From positions 1 through 41,870 of the forward strand of contig JAUHXA010000060.1 of the NCBI GenBank assembly GCA_030427245.1: 41,870 nt of DNA, given 5' to 3'. A program made the position numbers and the translations under genes. Each line of letters begins with the position of its first letter. Positions within the stretch are counted from its first letter, which is position 1. The notes beneath the pieces are model-generated. The model worked only from the letters and a program-made list of their open reading frames with translations. It made no database searches and was not told the origin of the DNA. Positions 13,067 to 41,777 of the stretch are shown here, piece after piece. Source of the DNA: Bacteroidia bacterium. Lineage in GTDB: Bacteria; Bacteroidota; Bacteroidia; Chitinophagales; UBA2359.

Positions 13067-13443
13067 GGGGCTGTACTGGCATTGACAGTAAAGCAATAGG
13101 TGAGTAAGCATGTCGAGCTTTGTTTGTTGGCTCGCAAATCTCAACATTCAAACTTTGCAAGTGGCAACACTTCTTATGCGATGGCAGCCTAAGTTCTAGG
13201 TTAATTTAGATGCCTCAACCTCCCGCAACCGCACGTTTGTTTGGCTCGTGTAGCGGTCGAGGTTTCGAACCCATGTCGAACTAGTGTAAGTGATTCTTCC
13301 GACACTTATGCGAAACTCAGGAAGTAAGGAAGTTTTTAGGTTGGTGTTATTCCTTGTTCTTCCCGACAATCAATAGAACACTAAACATGTAGAAAGCTCA
13401 TGGATTCTTTATCTGGACGAGGGTTCGAATCCCTTCAGCTCCA
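13067..13443 (+). ncRNA. ssrA: Transfer-messenger RNA (tmRNA)
   Basis: The 5' end GGGGCTG (13067-13073) pairs with CAGCTCC (13436-13442) to form the tRNA-like acceptor stem, with discriminator A at 13443 and no encoded CCA. The 3' part contains the T arm (GGGTTCGAATCCC). The tag reading frame is visible as GGC AAC ACT TCT TAT GCG ATG GCA GCC TAA at 13163-13192, giving GNTSYAMAA; if translation resumes earlier at GCA (13157) the tag is ASGNTSYAMAA. The YAMAA end is the expected degradation tag for tail-specific proteases. The role is rescue of stalled ribosomes with SmpB. Length is about 377 nt. An intrinsic terminator follows. Confidence 0.95.
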
Positions 13444-13453
13444 CTTTTTTCTT

Positions 13454-26647: not shown

Positions 26648-27184
26648 ATGCTGGTTCCGCCTCTTTCTGTTATCCGTCAAAAACTGAGTAATCCTCGTTT
26701 AGCGATTCTATTTGGGTGCTTATTTTTGGTTTCGCAATTGGTGATTGTGTACATCACTATTCCTTTGGGAAGTGACAAACTATTGCAGCTTCAAACTACT
26801 TTTTCGGTAGCTACTTTTCAGGAAATCCTTGCCGAATGGCGAGCTTACGATATCTTGTATCTGTATTACCAACATTATTATCTCGACCTTTTTTTGCACC
26901 CTCTTTTTTACAGTGTATTTTTGGGAACAGTTTTGGCATTGAGTATGGATTTTGCCAAAATTGAAGCGAAGTACAATTTCGTTTTGTTTTTTCCTTTTGT
27001 AGCTGGAATGTGTGATGTGTTGGAGAATGGTATGCACCTTTTGCTATTGGCAAATGCTGAATTTATCAATGCTTTTACAGTTGGATTGAGTGCCTGTTTT
27101 GCGAATAGCAAATGGCTTTTGTGTGGTGTTTGTATTGTTTTGGTTGTTTATTTTTCTCTCATCAGAGCTATATGGAAATCGTGA
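26648..27184 (+). CDS. Four-helix integral membrane protein, unknown function
   Basis: This 178-residue hydrophobic protein has about four membrane helices: residues 17-40 (LAILFGCLFLVSQLVIVYI), 76-100, 110-140 (FFPFVAGMCDVLENGMHLLLL) and 152-172. I do not recognise a family. A conserved-looking loop (CDVLENGMH) lies in the third helix. It follows the MerR gene in the same direction, and its last 37 bp overlap the tail of the SRPBCC-YCII gene on the opposite strand. Function cannot be inferred. Confidence 0.6.
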   Translation: MLVPPLSVIRQKLSNPRLAILFGCLFLVSQLVIVYITIPLGSDKLLQLQTTFSVATFQEILAEWRAYDILYLYYQHYYLDLFLHPLFYSVFLGTVLALSMDFAKIEAKYNFVLFFPFVAGMCDVLENGMHLLLLANAEFINAFTVGLSACFANSKWLLCGVCIVLVVYFSLIRAIWKS

Positions 27185-28263
27185 AATTCGGCTGACATCA
27201 ATCCATTTTTTACGGCAGGGTCATTGTTCATAATTTCTTGTGCAACTTCACTTGAAGAAGCTTCCAAAACCACGATTCCAAAACCAGTTTCGGGATCGGG
27301 TGAACGACCTGCCATGATTACAGTTCCTTCTTCGGTCAATTTTTTTAGGTAATTAAAGTGTACCCCAATAACGGCATTTTGTTCGGCAGTCCATGCTTCG
27401 GGATTACGAGCCAGTTCTGGATCTGTCAAGGTGAGTTTGTAGGCAAATTGCTGCATATCAGTTGTATTTTCTGTATTTTGTTGTGATGTATTTTCTTCAA
27501 TAATGGCTGGTGTAGGAGGAGTTTCAGCGGGGCTGGGAGCAGTAACATTAGCTGCTTTTTTGGATGTAGGCGGGGCAATGCCGTCTATATCTGTTGCAGT
27601 AGAAGAATCAAAGGTTTTCTTCGGGGTAGAGGCAGATGGAACCGTTCTTTGCACAGATGCACTTACTTTTTCCTGTTTTTCATCATTCATTGTAGGCAAA
27701 CCTCCACTTTTAGTATTTTCGTTTTTACCATAGGGATTGCTCAAGACAAGGTTGGTCTGCATATCTGCCAATGCCAACAACCAAGTTTGTTGAAAATAAT
27801 CGTAGGCTGCAAGCCATTCACCCTGTTTTTGCCAGCCTACTTGGGTAACTCTCACATCTGTTTGACTATCCGACAAAGAGGTGAACTCTACGACTACTTG
27901 TGTTTTTTCTTTCTGAATGGTAGAAAATTTGTTGGGCATCTCCAACTCAAAGGTAAACATCCTAAAAGGAATAAATGAAAGAATACGATTCTCAGAATGT
28001 GGGAAATTGTCTTTGGTATAGAGTGAGATATTGTAATTGCCATCTACTCGAAAGTCAATTTTGGAATCTACAGCCAAAAAACTTTGTACTCCTTTATCGG
28101 TTGTCCAACCCCACCAAGCTTTATCTACGGGTATGTTCACTGTTGCTTGGCTGATCAGTATTTTTCCGTCAGTTCCATCTATTTTTTGACTATAAGAAGT
28201 GGAAGGAAGTAACAACAATACACTGAAAAAGGAGCAAAGTAGCAATCTAAAGAAATTCATCAT
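27148..28263 (-). CDS. Secreted SRPBCC-YCII fusion protein
   Basis: This 371-residue protein begins with a signal peptide (FFRLLLCSFFSVLLLLPSTSYSQ). Residues about 36-175 resemble the SRPBCC/AHSA1 hydrophobic-ligand fold (ATVNIPVDKAWWGWTTDKGVQSFLAVDSKIDFRVDGNYNIS..., ending GEWLAAYDYFQQTWLLALADMQTNL). A low-complexity Pro/Ser/Thr linker (about 185-270) joins this to a C-terminal YCII domain (about 273-371: VHFNYLKKLTEEGTVIMAGRSPDPETGFGIVVLEA, ending AEFHDFHIALMREK). Both parts are usually cytoplasmic single-domain proteins, so an exported fusion is unusual. The C-terminus overlaps the opposite-strand membrane protein by 37 bp. Role unknown. Confidence 0.78.
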   Translation of the reverse strand: MMNFFRLLLCSFFSVLLLLPSTSYSQKIDGTDGKILISQATVNIPVDKAWWGWTTDKGVQSFLAVDSKIDFRVDGNYNISLYTKDNFPHSENRILSFIPFRMFTFELEMPNKFSTIQKEKTQVVVEFTSLSDSQTDVRVTQVGWQKQGEWLAAYDYFQQTWLLALADMQTNLVLSNPYGKNENTKSGGLPTMNDEKQEKVSASVQRTVPSASTPKKTFDSSTATDIDGIAPPTSKKAANVTAPSPAETPPTPAIIEENTSQQNTENTTDMQQFAYKLTLTDPELARNPEAWTAEQNAVIGVHFNYLKKLTEEGTVIMAGRSPDPETGFGIVVLEASSSEVAQEIMNNDPAVKNGLMSAEFHDFHIALMREK

Positions 28264-28642: not shown

Positions 28643-31315
28643 TTAGAAAGTCCTGATGTCAATATTTTTACCCGATATATTGATGTTGGTGTGTGTATCA
28701 GTGAATGTCATGGTGAAAGAAGCATCTTCACCCAAGTGTTCTTCAAATACTTCCCTGTATTTGTCTAACTTATCAGCAGGAATCGCCTTGTTATTCACCT
28801 TTGCATTTTTGCCATCGTATTTTATTTTCACTTCTCTGGCTTCTAAATCCAACAATCCATCACCCTCCAACATTTTTCGGAGTTTGGTAGTCACCACTTT
28901 GAGATTGGAGTTCCACATATTTTCCTCATACTCCATCTTCAATTCCATCGCATCTTCGAAGTCTCTCTCAAATAGGTTGAGATCTTTTTCATATTCTTTC
29001 ATACCTTCCTCATAATGTTTCATTTGTTCCTCATAATCTTTGTGCCATTTCTCCATATTCTTTTCGTACTCTTGTTGCTGCTTATCCCAGTTCTTTTGCC
29101 ACTCCTCACCCCACTTTTCGCCCCATTCCTTCTCCCACTTTTCACCCCATTCTTCACCCCATTTTTCCCATTTCTCAGCCCACTCTTTTTGCTTGTCCTC
29201 GTCCCACTCCGAATTCCATTCCTTCTCCCACTTACCTTCCCACTCGTTTTCCCATTTCTCAGCCCATTTATCACCCCAATCTTCCCACTTTTCAGCCCAT
29301 ACTTCCATTTTATCCTCAAAAGCCTGACGTTCCTCCTCATTCCATTCAAAGTGCGTTTCATGTTGTTCCTCCAAATTATCTTGCCACTCCTCCAATTCAT
29401 CTTCGTATTTGTCCAGCACCCTTTCATAGTCATCCATAATACGATCTAATTCCGCATCGTCCAAACTCTCTCGATTCCGAAGACTTTCCTTCAGTTTTTG
29501 TTGTTGAACCGCCAAAGAATCTCTCAAAGGCTTCAATTTTGCACGCAACTCCTGACTCTTGATAGAATCCAACACCATAGGCATTTTCAATTTGAGGACC
29601 TGCTTAGGAAATTTATTTTTAGACTTGAATTTATTTTTATCCTTGTCTTTGATAACTATTCTATGGGGGAAATTCCCTTTTCCATCTAAGTACAAAATAT
29701 TGTTATACCCTTTAGCTATATCTACCCAAACATCAGGTCGATCTACCATCATAGCGATGAGATCTGATTTGCCGTTTAGTATCGAATTCAAATCGTAAAA
29801 GCCACTAAAGTCTGGTGCATTTGGAGTAACAGGGAGCTCAGGCAACTCAGGTAAGGCAGGGGTTTCGGGTAATACTGGAACTGCAGGAACCATTGGTACT
29901 TTGGGCAATACCAAAATATTGGTGTTCGGTGTTACAAACACTTGAGGAGTCGGTGGCGTTGGAGGAGTTGGGATTGAAGGCACTGTAACGATCTTCCCAT
30001 CCTTGGATTTGAAAACCAGTTTTTGTGTGTTTTTTTGAAGTTTATCTACTTGTTTTTCAATTTTCTTTTCTCCTTTTTTGAGGCGTTTTTCAATTCGCTT
30101 GGCTCTCGCTTTTGCCCTTTTGGTAGAATCTGCGGTCAATTCCACAAAAACGTCCCCCACATCTTCTGCCACCCACTTCAAATCCTCTACCATCGAATCA
30201 ATAAATATATTTACCTCCTTTTCAGCCGCTTCAATGCTCGAATGAGAAGTCCAAGAAAGTGCCAAAACTGCAATCAACAACATCAGGGAAGCCACCCAAC
30301 CATCTACAAAATTGAACTGTTTTTCGCTTGGGCTGAATAGCCGCTGAATGCGAGCCATCAAATTATCTTGCTTGCCATTTCCTGCAAACGCTGCCGCCAA
30401 GTAAGGGGTTTCTTGCTGTATTCTCAAATACTCAATTTCGGTCAACGCTTTGGCATATACGACTTTATCCACACAAAGATGAATCGCCAAATCATCACAG
30501 CAATGCTCTCGAGTAGACTGCATTTTGCTAGACAGCCACCATGCAGCAGGATGGTAAAACAATACGATTTCAGCCAAAGATTGAAGGATATTCACCAAAT
30601 AGTCATTGCGGTAAATATGCGCCAATTCGTGTGCCAAAATTGCTTCTACTTCAGATGTTTTCAGTCCTGTCATTGCACCTATCGGAAACAAAATCACAGG
30701 CTTAAAATGACCAATCACCATCGGAGCAGAAACAGCAGCCGACTCTAATAAGCGAATTGTTTTGGTCACACCAATTGTCTTACAAATAGCATCCAACTTC
30801 TTTTGCCAATGCGCTTCAACGGGGTAAACATCTCTCCTACGAAGCCGCTGGACATATACAAACCCTCCAACAAACCGAATACTAAACAACAGACAGCCTA
30901 TCATCCACAAAGCTACAACCCACGCCATGTAATCGTTTGCCATGGCAGATAAATCCTTGAAAAAGGCGGACACAGAAGTCTCCGCCTTTGAAGTTTCGCT
31001 TGCAATGCTTTCGTCTAAGAAAACCAGTTCAACTATATCATTTTTTTCGTTTTGTACTTCCACAGGTACAACCCAATCTACTGCGGGAGCAGCAGTTTGA
31101 TGCAAATAACAGAAGGTAGAAAGACTGCAACCCAACAATACAAATAAAGCCGAAGCATACATATTATACCGCAACTTAGAGCTGGGATTTTTAAAAAGCG
31201 ACAATACAACCGTTGCGATGATGACCACAATTGCGCCTTGCCAAATAGAATGAAGAATCGTCCAGCCAATCGCATTAACCAGAGTTTCATTTAATATATT
31301 TTGAAGATAAGTCAT
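28643..31315 (-). CDS. BlaR1-type M56 peptidase with Trp-rich helical region
   Basis: This 890-residue membrane protein starts with an M56/BlaR1 metallopeptidase module: four hydrophobic segments (about 11-41, 50-70, 130-152 and near 338-356) and the zinc motif HELAH (229-233, in ILAHELAHIYRND), plus MQSTREHCCDDLAI. Family members cleave a BlaI-type repressor after sensing a signal. The usual penicillin-binding sensor domain is absent. Instead there is a Pro-rich linker (about 440-500), a charged helical region and, at about 670-760, a stretch with Trp every fourth residue (EKWEKEW, GEKWGEEW). The C-terminus is a small domain (VKIKYDGKNAKVNNKAIPADKLDKYREVFEEHLG). It lies 55 bp after the blaI-like gene, as an operon. 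Confidence 0.9.
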   Translation of the reverse strand: MTYLQNILNETLVNAIGWTILHSIWQGAIVVIIATVVLSLFKNPSSKLRYNMYASALFVLLGCSLSTFCYLHQTAAPAVDWVVPVEVQNEKNDIVELVFLDESIASETSKAETSVSAFFKDLSAMANDYMAWVVALWMIGCLLFSIRFVGGFVYVQRLRRRDVYPVEAHWQKKLDAICKTIGVTKTIRLLESAAVSAPMVIGHFKPVILFPIGAMTGLKTSEVEAILAHELAHIYRNDYLVNILQSLAEIVLFYHPAAWWLSSKMQSTREHCCDDLAIHLCVDKVVYAKALTEIEYLRIQQETPYLAAAFAGNGKQDNLMARIQRLFSPSEKQFNFVDGWVASLMLLIAVLALSWTSHSSIEAAEKEVNIFIDSMVEDLKWVAEDVGDVFVELTADSTKRAKARAKRIEKRLKKGEKKIEKQVDKLQKNTQKLVFKSKDGKIVTVPSIPTPPTPPTPQVFVTPNTNILVLPKVPMVPAVPVLPETPALPELPELPVTPNAPDFSGFYDLNSILNGKSDLIAMMVDRPDVWVDIAKGYNNILYLDGKGNFPHRIVIKDKDKNKFKSKNKFPKQVLKLKMPMVLDSIKSQELRAKLKPLRDSLAVQQQKLKESLRNRESLDDAELDRIMDDYERVLDKYEDELEEWQDNLEEQHETHFEWNEEERQAFEDKMEVWAEKWEDWGDKWAEKWENEWEGKWEKEWNSEWDEDKQKEWAEKWEKWGEEWGEKWEKEWGEKWGEEWQKNWDKQQQEYEKNMEKWHKDYEEQMKHYEEGMKEYEKDLNLFERDFEDAMELKMEYEENMWNSNLKVVTTKLRKMLEGDGLLDLEAREVKIKYDGKNAKVNNKAIPADKLDKYREVFEEHLGEDASFTMTFTDTHTNINISGKNIDIRTF

Positions 31316-31370: not shown

Positions 31371-31775
31371 CTAATCACTACTTTTATCTTCCAATTCGTC
31401 CAAGTACTCACGTATTTGCTTCAGTTCTTCTTGAGTCGTTTCGCTTCTCCCCAATGCCTGCATCACCAATTTCATAGCAGACCCTTTGAAGGTCGTATCC
31501 AAAAAACGTTCTAAAAGAGAACTTTGAGCCATTTTTTCACTCACATTGGCTTGATACACATGTGTCCGATTCGAATCATCCCGAACAACCAAGTTCTTTT
31601 CGTTCATCAATTGCATGATTTTCAAAGTAGTCGTGTAGCCAATTTTCTTTTTATCGTTGGCTCTTTTGTCGTTCAATAAGTCATTTACCTGTCGCACAGT
31701 GCATTTCTTGTGTTCCCACAAAATCTGTAAAATTTCAAGTTCTGATTCCGTTGGTTTGGATTTCATATCGCACAT
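31371..31775 (-). CDS. blaI: BlaI/MecI/CopY-family repressor
   Basis: This 134-residue winged-helix regulator matches the BlaI/MecI/CopY (penicillinase repressor) family: PTESELEILQILWEHKKCTVRQVNDLLN, then GYTTTLKIMQLMNEKNLVVRDDSNRTHVYQANV, and a C-terminal dimerisation half (LERFLDTTFKGSAMKLVMQALG). The start could be the Met at residue 4 (MKSKPTESE). Such repressors bind palindromes at their own promoter and are cleaved when the M56 partner is activated. The partner gene follows directly. Three palindromes TACGAANNNNTTCGTA overlap its promoter about 135-205 bp upstream, which fits autoregulation. What the pair senses is unknown. Confidence 0.93.
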   Translation of the reverse strand: MCDMKSKPTESELEILQILWEHKKCTVRQVNDLLNDKRANDKKKIGYTTTLKIMQLMNEKNLVVRDDSNRTHVYQANVSEKMAQSSLLERFLDTTFKGSAMKLVMQALGRSETTQEELKQIREYLDELEDKSSD

Positions 31776-31907: not shown

Positions 31908-31981
31908 TACGATTGTTTTCGTACTTCAAAGATATACGAAGTATTTCGTAATAGCAAATCTTTTTTACGAAAACTTTCGTA
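31908..31981 (-). promoter_or_regulatory. Three BlaI-type operators at the blaI promoter
   Basis: Three copies of the palindrome TACGAA-N4-TTCGTA occur at 31908-31923 (one mismatch), 31935-31950 and 31966-31981 (both perfect). Their centres are 27 and 31 bp apart, close to whole helical turns. The middle one fills the spacer between the -33 and -7 boxes, the first covers the predicted transcription start, and the last lies upstream of -33. This geometry is typical for direct repression. Confidence 0.8.
31927..31958 (-). promoter_or_regulatory. Promoter of the blaI-M56 operon
   Basis: On the minus strand TTTG (31955-31958) is separated by 20 bp from TATCTTTG (31927-31934), matching the Bacteroidota pattern TTTG / TAnnTTTG. 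Transcription should start near 31920, leaving a leader of about 145 nt before the blaI start. Confidence 0.7.
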
Positions 31982-38194: not shown

Positions 38195-39985
38195 ATGGTA
38201 GGTGAATTTAGTTATCACATTTTTTTGTTTCCATTTAAATTGTCATGTGTTGAGTCAGAGAGTGAAAGACTTTTTGAAATCATAGATGATAAGTTGAATA
38301 AAGATACTTGGATACGTAAGCCTTTCCAATTATCGCCTTCAAGTAGTTATAATGAATTTGTATATTTTCTTGATTTTACAAGAAATGCTTTATTTGATAC
38401 TCCTGATGCAGAAGGAAACAGGATAATTAAGCAATTTCAATATAAAATAGAAAATACTGAAGACTTTCAAGCAACCTATAGCATTGGCATTCAAAACAAA
38501 AAAGAGCCTTACAAACTAAAGGTAGAAAAAATAACATTGGATATATACAATACCAATGTAGGGGTTTTAGGATTTCATCTTGAAAATAATATTGAAGAAC
38601 AAAATGAACCTAATGATATTTTAAAAATCAACGAGTTTGGTAGGAGAATTTATCCACAATTCTTAGGTAGTGATATACCACATACACAAGCAACAAAGGG
38701 TGCATTTCTTCCCGAGTCTATTAGTATATCAACATCAATTGGACATACACTTACAGATGACTTCAAAAAATTTGATAATTTGATGAAGTCCGGCAAAGAT
38801 TTACTCCCGTCATTTATTATGGGCTTATTCGGTACACCATTTTTAAGTGAAGATTTATTAAATATCAAACGACCTAAAAAATCGGAGATAATCATATCCC
38901 CTGTATTAGATGATAGAATGTTTGTCATGTGTTGGTATAAAAACAATGATTTATCTAAAAAACTATACGATGTAGTTGATTTTGATATAAATGGAGAAAA
39001 AGTAATTTATGGGTACGTAGATGATGACTACTGGTATAAATTTCTTTTTGTAGATAAAAGCGAGCCTTCTTGTGGAAATCAAACATTAAAAAACAAACTT
39101 CTATATGAACATACTTATGCAAGGTGGGTAGCTGACTACAGTGGAGGAACTCCGCCCAAATGTCAACTATTCGGGGTTAGTAGTTATTCCTTTGTACAAC
39201 TTACTAACGTTAACTGGTCAAAAACGCATTTTTGTAGTATGTACTATAGAATGGTCATATTGACTTTAGCGCAGAGAGCATCTATTCTAAAATTTTCAGA
39301 ATGGGTTGGCAATCTATCTGGTTTGAAAGAAAGACACGAATCACAGGTTGCAGAGAAGGCAAAAGCACTATACAAAGAGTATATAAAGTTCGTAAATAAA
39401 CTTTATTTTCGAGATATTTCTGCTCAAGAGCAAGGTAAAGAATTATATGAGCATATAAAAAAAGTGATAAACATAGAGAGGGACGTAAAGGATTTGGATG
39501 GAGAAATTGCAGAATTGGAGAATTATTCAAGTATATTAGTTGATAAAAAAAATAATAACGCTTTAACAGCTTTGACCCTAATAGGCGCTGCATTATTCTT
39601 GCCTACCTTTATCGCAGGATATTATGGAATGAATATTTTTTCATCCGATATAATTGAATATCCAACGACCAAAGAACTTATCGGAACTACAATAGGCTTT
39701 ATTATACTTTCTGTATTATCAGTAGGGATATTTTTAACCTACAAAATTCAAAAGCCTTTAAGGTACTTTTTTTCCATCATTATTTTATTAATTACATTGC
39801 TAATTGCAGGAAGCATGATGTGCTATCCAATATATAAAGGAAAAAATTCTACTGATGAAATTATAACTATTGAAAAATCGCAATTAGATGACATGAGTCA
39901 TAAAATAGATTCACTCGAATGCATTATAAATATTTATAATTTTAATGTTAAAAAAATAATTCAAAATCAACCAAATAATCAATAA
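38195..39985 (+). CDS. corA: CorA-like membrane effector of type III CRISPR
   Basis: This 596-residue protein has a large soluble N-terminal region (about 1-440) with no recognised domain, a long helix (about 380-450: ERHESQVAEKAKALYKEYIKFVN and KVINIERDVKDLDGEIAELEN) and a C-terminal membrane part. The first membrane helix ends in GYYGMN (GMN at 478-480), the selectivity signature of CorA magnesium channels. A second helix (494-518) and a further hydrophobic segment (521-545, RYFFSIIILLITLLIAG) follow. Classic CorA ends after two helices. In type III-B systems of Bacteroidota, CorA proteins are the membrane effectors opened by SAM-AMP. The stop is 1 bp before the first RAMP gene. It is AT-rich, with many ATA, AGA and TTA codons unlike upstream housekeeping genes, suggesting transfer. 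Confidence 0.75.
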   Translation: MVGEFSYHIFLFPFKLSCVESESERLFEIIDDKLNKDTWIRKPFQLSPSSSYNEFVYFLDFTRNALFDTPDAEGNRIIKQFQYKIENTEDFQATYSIGIQNKKEPYKLKVEKITLDIYNTNVGVLGFHLENNIEEQNEPNDILKINEFGRRIYPQFLGSDIPHTQATKGAFLPESISISTSIGHTLTDDFKKFDNLMKSGKDLLPSFIMGLFGTPFLSEDLLNIKRPKKSEIIISPVLDDRMFVMCWYKNNDLSKKLYDVVDFDINGEKVIYGYVDDDYWYKFLFVDKSEPSCGNQTLKNKLLYEHTYARWVADYSGGTPPKCQLFGVSSYSFVQLTNVNWSKTHFCSMYYRMVILTLAQRASILKFSEWVGNLSGLKERHESQVAEKAKALYKEYIKFVNKLYFRDISAQEQGKELYEHIKKVINIERDVKDLDGEIAELENYSSILVDKKNNNALTALTLIGAALFLPTFIAGYYGMNIFSSDIIEYPTTKELIGTTIGFIILSVLSVGIFLTYKIQKPLRYFFSIIILLITLLIAGSMMCYPIYKGKNSTDEIITIEKSQLDDMSHKIDSLECIINIYNFNVKKIIQNQPNNQ

Positions 39986-39986
39986 T

Positions 39987-41144
39987 ATGTCAGAGTTCAT
40001 ATTAACCTTCAAACTCATACAACACACTCCTTTGATACACTTTCAACACAATCAAAAAGGAGCAACGCTTCGAGCTACTGAAATGAAGCCTAAATTGGAT
40101 AGGTTTATTATTGAAACAATAAAGGAAATTCCCAGAGATTGGTTCGTAGGGAAAGGGGACCACCCTGCTTTGGATTATAAGCTAAATATAGAAACAGCAG
40201 GGGTCAAGAGAAGCTATATTATTAATAATCATTTATCCGACACTGATAAAAAAAATATTCAAAAGAATAAAGCCATTCCTCTTGCCCCTAGCCCTTATTT
40301 TGCGGATGCAGAACATATAAAAAATGGAAACTTACATAAAGTTAGAAAGGGGATTATAGGAATAATCTATGATGAAAAGAGAAAAGAATGTGATTATGAA
40401 ATTAGTATTTATTTTTTCAGTTTTAATCCAGAAATACTTAAAGTCATTGATAGTCATTTTAGAATTTTTTTATTCTTAAATAACTTCGGCACTAGGCAAT
40501 CAAAAGGTTTTGGAAGCTTTAGTTTAAAAGACACAAGTAGAAGAGAATATGAAGATCTTTTAAAAAAAGAAACTATTGTTTATTACAAAAAAACAAATGA
40601 GCCTTTAAAAACTATAAACAATGACTACACTAAAATAAAATCTGGCCCACAATTTTCTAAACCACTACTAAGTCAATATTTTACAGAAAAGAAAATTGCT
40701 AATTGGGAGAAAGGAATTATCATCAGAGATTTAGTTCAAAATATAGGTAATCCCGAAAAAAGAGTTTATGATAATAAAGGAGAATATCAATTTATTCGAG
40801 CCTTACTTGGTTTAGCCGATAGCTATCATTATCCAAAAAGACATCATAAATCTGAAGTTGAAACAGTTTATATCGAATGGATTCCAGGTGATAAATATGA
40901 AAATAATAAAGAATATATTGAAAATAATAAAATTGAGCGATTTCAGTCTCCAATTACTTTCAAAGTTTTTGAAAATTTTGTCTATGTTATTTCAAATAAC
41001 AGTTACAAGAGCATGTTAGGTCAAAAGTTCAGATTTTATTCTGATTTGGATAAAAAGGGAATAGTTCTAACCGTTCCAGAAAAATTTGAAATAAATGATT
41101 TTTTGCAAAAATGCCTAATTAACCTAGGATATAAACGACTATAA
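39987..41144 (+). CDS. RAMP-superfamily CRISPR protein, two-part (Cmr1/Cmr6-like)
   Basis: The first 185 residues of this 385-residue protein look like a Cas7/RAMP domain: a beta-strand start (FILTFKLIQHTPLIHF), the conserved segment GATLRATEMKPKLDRF (about 24-39), which sits where RAMPs of the Cmr1/Cmr6 type have LRPPSIKGALRFW, and the glycine-rich loop NFGTRQSKGFGSF (about 168-180). Residues about 260-385 form a second part (EYQFIRALLGLADSYHYP, then IERFQSPITFKVFENFVYVI). Such proteins bind crRNA in type III effector complexes. It is fused in an operon between corA (1-bp gap) and a paralogous RAMP gene (3-bp gap). The exact Cmr subunit cannot be decided by eye. Codon use is AT-rich, like corA. 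Confidence 0.7.
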   Translation: MSEFILTFKLIQHTPLIHFQHNQKGATLRATEMKPKLDRFIIETIKEIPRDWFVGKGDHPALDYKLNIETAGVKRSYIINNHLSDTDKKNIQKNKAIPLAPSPYFADAEHIKNGNLHKVRKGIIGIIYDEKRKECDYEISIYFFSFNPEILKVIDSHFRIFLFLNNFGTRQSKGFGSFSLKDTSRREYEDLLKKETIVYYKKTNEPLKTINNDYTKIKSGPQFSKPLLSQYFTEKKIANWEKGIIIRDLVQNIGNPEKRVYDNKGEYQFIRALLGLADSYHYPKRHHKSEVETVYIEWIPGDKYENNKEYIENNKIERFQSPITFKVFENFVYVISNNSYKSMLGQKFRFYSDLDKKGIVLTVPEKFEINDFLQKCLINLGYKRL

Positions 41145-41147
41145 AAT

Positions 41148-41777
41148 ATGACCAAAAATAATTTCAAAAAAACATTCCACCTCAAACAACACACCCCAAT
41201 CATCCACTTCCAATCCGACCAAAAGGGAGCATCGCTCCGAGCCACGGAATTGAAACCCAAGTTGGATAAATTTCTGTTTGGGCTGTTCAAAGAACAGAAC
41301 CAAAAAATAGATGATAAGTGGTTGGTGGGAAATGGAAAAACGGAACACAAGGCCTTGGATTACAAAGTGAAAATCCAAACAGGTGCAATCAAAGATACCT
41401 ACCTCATTGACAGCTATATGTCGAGGCGAGACAAGGGAACAATTGAGCGAATGGGCTACAAAGCACTTGCTCCAAGCTCCTACTTTGCAGATACCAAAAA
41501 CATCAAAGACAAGAACTGGGATTTGATGAAAAAAGGGCTGTTCTTTGAGGAATTGGAACGAGGATGTGGCTATGAGGTAGAGATTGAGTTTTTCAGCTTT
41601 CAGACCGAATTATTGGAAGAAATAGAAAAACATTTCGATACTTTTTTATTGCTGACCAATTTTGGCACAAGGCAGTCGAAGGGCTTTGGTAGTTTTAGCA
41701 ATGCCAATTTGAGTCTTTCAGCTATAGAAACATTGTACCAAAATTCCAGCAATTCTCAAAGTTCAGGTAATGAATAA
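41148..41777 (+). CDS. RAMP-superfamily CRISPR protein, single-domain paralogue
   Basis: This 209-residue protein is a clear paralogue of the preceding gene's N-terminal half: HLKQHTPIIHFQSDQKG, ASLRATELKPKLDKF, LAPSSYFADTKNIKD and NFGTRQSKGFGSFS align one to one. It stops soon after the glycine-rich loop with a short Ser/Asn tail and lacks the second part of the longer paralogue. It could be naturally short or shortened by mutation. Unlike its neighbour, its codon use is closer to the housekeeping genes (more TTG, CTC, GGA), so the two copies may have different histories. It ends 93 bp before the window edge; the rest of the CRISPR effector genes would lie beyond. Confidence 0.7.
   Translation: MTKNNFKKTFHLKQHTPIIHFQSDQKGASLRATELKPKLDKFLFGLFKEQNQKIDDKWLVGNGKTEHKALDYKVKIQTGAIKDTYLIDSYMSRRDKGTIERMGYKALAPSSYFADTKNIKDKNWDLMKKGLFFEELERGCGYEVEIEFFSFQTELLEEIEKHFDTFLLLTNFGTRQSKGFGSFSNANLSLSAIETLYQNSSNSQSSGNE

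Follow-up and report, generated by a model that had tools for sequence, protein, structure and literature searches.

We analysed a 41,870-nucleotide stretch of DNA (the window; contig JAUHXA010000060.1, assembly GCA_030427245.1) from a Bacteroidia bacterium of the lineage UBA2359 (Chitinophagales), focusing on a gene for an M56 (BlaR1-type) membrane metallopeptidase whose C-terminal tail carries a tract of regularly spaced tryptophans (Trp). This open reading frame (ORF) lies at 28643..31315 on the minus strand, as do the repressor gene and all parts of the protease described below, and encodes 890 residues. A gene for a 134-residue BlaI/MecI/CopY-type repressor lies 55 bp upstream of it (31371..31775), and three operator-like palindromes precede the repressor gene. 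The anatomy of the protease and its homology are directly established, as are the two-copy structure of the Trp tract, the operator-like array and the near-exclusive place of that array in the genome. The locus is unusual in sequence and ordinary in setting.

An earlier sequence-only reading of the window had called the protein an M56 sensor peptidase, and this identity was borne out. In a Pfam profile scan it matched PF05569 (Peptidase_M56) with 92.7 bits against a cut-off of 31 (E-value 3.1e-26), and the adjoining repressor matched PF03965 with 79.9 bits against a cut-off of 22.6 (E-value 2.3e-22). The M56 core spans residues 26-324 (30344..31240) according to the Pfam match and the AlphaFold model, whose block-mean predicted local distance difference test (pLDDT) score is 81-96 across residues 11-70 and 121-300. 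Both active-site motifs are preserved in an alignment of 25 M56 sequences: H229, E230, L231 and H233 of the zinc motif HELAH (HEXXH; residues 229-233, 30617..30631) are invariant in all 25, and so are E270 and D274 of the third-ligand motif EHCCD (E270-x3-D274, 30494..30508). The counterpart of the latter in BlaR1 is E242XXXD, and HEXXH and EXXXD motifs are described there (PMC9834060, in excerpt). BlaR1 structures also filled the first six Foldseek matches of the predicted model (best 8exq_A, E-value 2.6e-8; TMt 0.60 for 8exr_A) and gave the best sequence match among solved structures (8exs, E-value 3.1e-8). The likeness to Staphylococcus aureus BlaR1/MecR1 thus comprises the M56 core, the HEXXH and EXXXD motifs, the adjoining BlaI-type repressor and the structural match (8exq/8exp). 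A stricter assignment as BlaR1 equivalog was rejected, as the NCBIfam profile blaR1_generic gave 98.2 bits where 400 are required.

BlaR1 senses a beta-lactam and then cleaves BlaI (PMC7593790, in excerpt). Unlike S. aureus BlaR1/MecR1, the window protein has no detectable penicillin-binding sensor domain: a Pfam search of all 890 residues gave no transpeptidase match at an E-value of 1, and none of the 25 aligned M56 proteins, the window protein included, gave one at 0.01. The sequence-only reading had been right about the missing domain, which is lacking here and in 24/24 aligned relatives. It had also proposed that the Trp-rich region replaces the beta-lactam sensor, which the analysis does not support: the tail consists of a linker, a predicted helical stalk and a small conserved module, and the Trp tract is a part of the stalk. 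As a penicillin-binding domain was found in none of the 25 aligned proteins, proteins of this set generally lack it and the Trp tract is not the cause. From the sequence, an inducer other than a beta-lactam is plausible. Among the titles and abstract openings listed by searches of openly licensed literature, none pointed to a paper on what M56 proteins without a penicillin-binding domain sense.

The tail begins with a proline-rich linker (residues 445-503, 29807..29983; 19 Pro in 59 residues; boundaries drawn by eye), which is a low-confidence coil in the model. A predicted helical region with a net charge of -35 follows (residues 581-818, 28862..29575), and then a C-terminal 'DGLI...NGKKQ...KY' module (residues 808-868, 28712..28894), delimited by hmmsearch and alignment. 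AlphaFold models of the full-length protein and of the tail alone show the same plan, with helices at about residues 660-700 and 706-818 and then a small alpha/beta module. The sequence-only reading had described the Trp-rich region as helical and advised structure prediction; it was indeed modelled as helical, as part of this longer helical stretch. The tail gave no Pfam match passing the cut-off and the C-terminal module none either, the tail model gave no Foldseek match at an E-value of 0.001, and residues 670-760 gave no Protein Data Bank sequence match at an E-value of 10.

The C-terminal module is conserved. Tails of more than 40 residues were present in 92 of 103 M56 proteins and entered the module-profile search (two pairs, L060/L061 and L009/L078 in our locus numbering, were identical over the 120 residues compared). 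A profile of the module built without the window protein found it in that protein with an E-value of 1.5e-7 (hmmsearch of the 92 tails). In a separate module search, whose alignment included the window row, the match in the window's own genome is circular. As a conserved module lies beyond it, the Trp tract makes up only part of the tail. The module also stands at the C-terminus of proteins that are not M56 peptidases (L184, L185, L186, L188, L189 and L190), and no Pfam match was found in the three of these that were scanned (L184, L186 and L190). A further match in L187 (E-value 0.005, 22/62 positions) was discarded as chance. Judged by eye, the module-bearing non-M56 proteins have signal-like or membrane-spanning starts, and a position of the M56 tail outside the cytoplasm would agree with this.

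The Trp tract occupies residues 670-760 (29036-29308), which hold 19 Trp, 25 Glu and 17 Lys. The claim that Trp recurs at nearly every fourth residue stood up well: 14 pairs of Trp are four residues apart (W-x3-W) instead of the expected 3.63. Shuffling with the composition preserved never reached 14 in 5000 trials. Distances of 8 and 12 were likewise enriched, with 0/5000 shuffles each. The spacings of the 18 core Trp (29087-29299) run 4,3,4,4,4,4,4,4, then 8, then again 4,3,4,4,4,4,4,4, a regularity that can be read as the duplication of a 39-residue unit. Copy 1 comprises residues 668-706 (29198..29314) and copy 2 residues 707-745 (29081..29197), each with nine Trp, as defined by the spacing and by alignment of the copies. 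They are identical at 23/39 residues and 81/117 nucleotides, with 9/9 Trp in register. On the plus strand, a Leu/Phe/Pro-rich open frame of 144 residues (29015-29449) runs antisense to the tract and is probably a mirror of the Trp repeat.

We compared the 160 residues that precede the module in 30 proteins with a full module. This slot contains 21 Trp and 14 W-x3-W pairs in the window protein, against 0-7 Trp and no W-x3-W pair in the other 29/29. Its sequence is hypervariable among those 29 proteins, 22 of which have at least 30% D/E/K/R in it; L081, second in Trp content, has seven Trp and three W-x6-W pairs. A scan of tails at 80 named loci yielded 78 rows (L074 and L098 had no usable ORF; a neighbouring ORF was picked at L037, and the M56 signature is present in 77/78 rows). 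W-x3-W was absent from 77 of these and occurred once in L113, whose ORF runs off the available sequence. The nearest orthologue found, L005, comes from another genus of the same family and is 44% identical over the core. Its tract is shorter and related (seven Trp, W-G-E-[KR]), with 33/78 residues identical and an E-value of 3e-8; this value comes from aligning just the two stretches, both biased in composition, without low-complexity masking. Units of the form W-[GA]-[EDQ]-[KREN] number eight here, six in L005 and one each in two others of the 103 M56 proteins. At the DNA level, the pattern W[GA]E[KE]W[GA]E[KE]W with at most one mismatch occurred in one of 248 genomes of the order, the window's own; the L005 genome was one of those scanned, but looser tracts like the one it encodes escape this pattern. 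A TGG-N9 pattern was uninformative among the matches listed from 395 genomes, as Gly repeats in other frames also give TGG. The search for the W-rich domain in other M56 proteins, which the sequence-only reading had advised, thus gave none in 29/29 proteins with a full module and a related, shorter form in L005. On this sequence comparison, the tract looks less like a new receptor domain than like a lineage-specific elaboration of a stalk that changes fast and is present in related proteins too.

Such a tract could also have arisen by neutral low-complexity drift, with replication slippage lengthening a W-G-E-K-rich spacer in which Trp as such serves no function. This explanation is favoured by tandem DNA repeats of 12, 24 and 36 bp that can still be recognised in the tract, by the hypervariability of the slot among relatives and by the restriction of repeated W-[GA]-[EDQ]-[KREN] units to 2/103 proteins, namely the window protein and L005. 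However, 10 of the 14 non-Trp identical residues are encoded by different codons in the two copies. This means that the copies are old at silent positions, and it argues against a recent expansion, which we rejected on these grounds. Although 10/14 comparable silent positions differ, 9/9 Trp were kept, while 16/30 other positions changed (14/30 kept; Fisher p 0.004). This contrast is modest and its p-value is optimistic, because the register of the copies was chosen on Trp. A recent expansion absent from close orthologues had been named as a possible objection to a sensory role of the tract, and here the outcome is mixed: 29/29 proteins lack the tract, but the L005 tract and the codon divergence speak against recency. 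Overall, we regard neutral drift as rather unlikely.

The sequence-only reading placed the Trp on one face of a helix. A four-residue repeat on a straight alpha-helix drifts by 40 degrees per step, so the Trp stripe winds round the helix. Accordingly, a one-face stripe across a whole copy of a straight helix was rejected: at 100 degrees each copy gives a Trp resultant of 0.32 (p about 0.30), although the five leading Trp of either copy fall on a common face (resultant 0.88). At 102.9 degrees the resultant is 0.20, which leaves the core Trp out of phase for a heptad coiled coil with 3-4 spacing. It reaches 0.89 at 93 degrees, an angle that is the best of a scan and was chosen after the fact. 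At 98.2 degrees, near the angle of an eleven-residue repeat, the seven Trp of L005 give a resultant of 0.92. Within residues 660-760 of the window protein, Glu-Lys pairs at distance 4 show a mild excess (9 against 5.1 expected; reached by 125/5000 shuffles), Lys-Glu pairs at the same distance number 8 against 5.0 expected (416/5000 shuffles), and Glu-Lys pairs at distance 3 number 2 against 5.1 expected.

This geometry bears on a second explanation, in which the Trp array itself is the sensor, as the sequence-only reading had suggested: a surface-seeking amphipathic helix would bind lipid, a hydrophobic ligand or the surface of the membrane and exert a pull on the protease. Such a helix would be in keeping with the hydrophobic moment of up to 0.53 in 18-residue windows, with the 9/9 Trp positions held between the copies and with the common face of the first five Trp in each. 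Against it, the Trp wind round the helix over the full copy, mean hydrophobicity is negative in every window computed, and the net charge of -14 of the tract would be unfavourable at an acidic membrane surface. The tract is also missing from 29/29 relatives that keep the core and the module. We therefore consider a sensor made of the Trp array itself unlikely.

Next to the protease and its repressor, the third element of the locus is the set of palindromes upstream of blaI. Site 1 (31908..31923) reads TACGA-N6-TCGTA, and sites 2 (31935..31950) and 3 (31966..31981) read TACGAA-N4-TTCGTA; the distance is 27 bp from site 1 to site 2 and 31 bp from site 2 to site 3. The genome (7.58 Mb) contains exact TACGA-N6-TCGTA eight times, comprising the three sites here and five singletons that all lie inside open frames of at least 182 codons. 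Among the named loci, 58/78 have at least one such palindrome within 1200 bp upstream, against 0/78 for a backward-read control. Thirteen of these 58 loci carry one copy, 17 two, 27 three and one five, and 65/75 of the spacings are 24-31 bp. Phased palindromes are present also in loci labelled Acidobacteria and Planctomycetota. More than one operator-like site has been reported for BlaI (PMC7253601, in excerpt), which is a further likeness. The same source gives TACA/TGTA for BlaI/MecI; TACGA-N6-TCGTA is a candidate BlaI operator, by its sequence unlike the TACA/TGTA form.

The surroundings of the pair differ from those of S. aureus BlaR1/MecR1 in that the two flanking genes examined encode neither a beta-lactamase nor a penicillin-binding protein. 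They are an AHSA1/YCII protein and an HMG-CoA reductase; the former is encoded downstream on the same strand (27148-28263), 379 bp from the M56 gene, and has AHSA1 and YCII matches in Pfam. No generally conserved gene was found after the M56 gene across the loci, the largest group of related neighbours having eight members, all on the opposite strand. Pfam scans of nine same-strand neighbours gave mostly unlike families, with PDZ domains in two, outer membrane protein barrels in two and no match in one. In L035 and L036 (Saprospiraceae), the M56 gene is followed on the same strand by a PDZ-domain protein that carries a Por secretion tail, and L039 has a related neighbour.

This context is relevant to a third explanation, according to which the system senses beta-lactams or other cell-wall antibiotics like BlaR1, through a partner protein instead of a sensor domain of its own. 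It would draw on the homology of core and BlaI to the BlaR1 system and on a precedent, as a BlaR1 homologue of Mycobacterium tuberculosis has no sensor domain either and its mode of beta-lactam detection is unclear (PMC9834060, in excerpt). However, all other exact operator-like sites of this genome lie inside open frames, so that the system does not appear to control a beta-lactamase gene, and the protein reaches only 98.2 of the 400 bits of the BlaR1 equivalog. Sensing through a partner seems very improbable to us.

Other M56 proteins of Bacteroidota have the same tail plan. Those of L106 (Lewinella cohaerens), L081, L036 and L069, for example, share the core and the C-terminal module and have a divergent, helix-like slot between them, with two or three operator-like sites upstream, as in the window. 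Those of L027, L086 and L013 have the M56 core in common, whereas their tails hold ankyrin repeats and gave no full-module match at an E-value of 1e-5. By analogy with BlaR1, these ankyrin tails would also lie outside the cytoplasm. From these sequences, the M56 tail looks like an exchangeable part.

Taken together, we hold it somewhat probable, from sequence and models, that the locus encodes a self-regulating BlaI-M56 envelope sensor whose stalk was elaborated by a Trp-rich duplication, with the M56 protein as the anti-repressor of the pair. As in BlaR1, the inner membrane would hold the zinc protease core, whose active site would face the cytoplasm. After the last membrane helix, the Pro-rich linker, the charged helical stalk and the C-terminal module would extend outside the cytoplasm, with the Trp array having been built through an old duplication of 39 residues in the stalk and its Trp positions probably kept by selection. 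The stalk would most likely work by stiffening or by associating with a partner, be it the envelope, a ligand or a second stalk. When either the stalk or the module senses a change, this would be relayed to the protease, which, by analogy with BlaR1, would cut BlaI. BlaI would thereby be released from the three palindromes before its own operon, and the pair would raise its own level.

Several observations weigh against this explanation. The alignments behind the AlphaFold models are shallow (25 sequences for the full length, 9 for the tail alone), the block pLDDT of residues 661-760 is moderate (47-79 for the full-length protein and 60-89 for the tail alone), and charged low-complexity sequence with a shallow alignment is easily modelled as helix. 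The 93-degree Trp periodicity matches no standard coiled coil, so packing between stalks through Trp is not established. As to the history of the tract, the compositional bias noted above tempers the L005 match, and when 20 genomes of the family were searched for the tract together with the module, the window was the only match; this search under-reports, because L005 has a related tract and the module. Across the genome, exact sites of the operator motif are fewer (8) than those of the backward-read control (16), and its 6-4-6 form with one mismatch has 14 sites against 54 in the control; of the 11 such sites elsewhere, three have been placed (also exact TACGA-N6-TCGTA) and eight are unplaced. 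As the motif is not enriched genome-wide, only its clustering at the blaI promoter speaks for an operator role. An exact palindrome is lacking at 20/78 loci and, within the sequence examined there, at two other M56 loci of the same genome; for L005, whose promoter is truncated in the available sequence, there was no operator match.

A more specific version of the envelope-sensor explanation appears quite doubtful to us. In it, the BlaI-M56 circuit is closed and has itself as its sole operator-bearing target, the protease tail is both sensor and effector, and its state sets its own abundance. The winding Trp ladder in the periplasm, with a period near 93 degrees, would form an undescribed right-handed or multi-helix Trp-packed structure, or bind an envelope ligand.

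Two further features lie elsewhere in the window. At 38195-41777, a CorA-like membrane protein (PADLOC CorA, E-value 4e-121) is followed by two tandem Cmr1-like genes near the contig end (E-values 1e-70 and 3.6e-44, the second much shorter); the arrangement resembles the border of a type III CRISPR locus of the CorA-associated kind in which Cmr1 is duplicated. A transfer-messenger RNA gene at 13067-13444 has the predicted tag ASTSRNRTFVWLV, whose ending looks unusual.

Our analysis shows that M56 proteins without a penicillin-binding domain are the rule among the relatives scanned (25/25). Here, the predicted helical stalk with its fast-changing sequence, the conserved module and the phased operator-like sites together provide a defined promoter, suited to a reporter, and a testable module. 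The Trp tract is a rare natural sequence, found in one genome, with a shorter relative in one other genus, among those searched. It could show whether the stalk of these proteases is a mere spacer or a participant in signalling.

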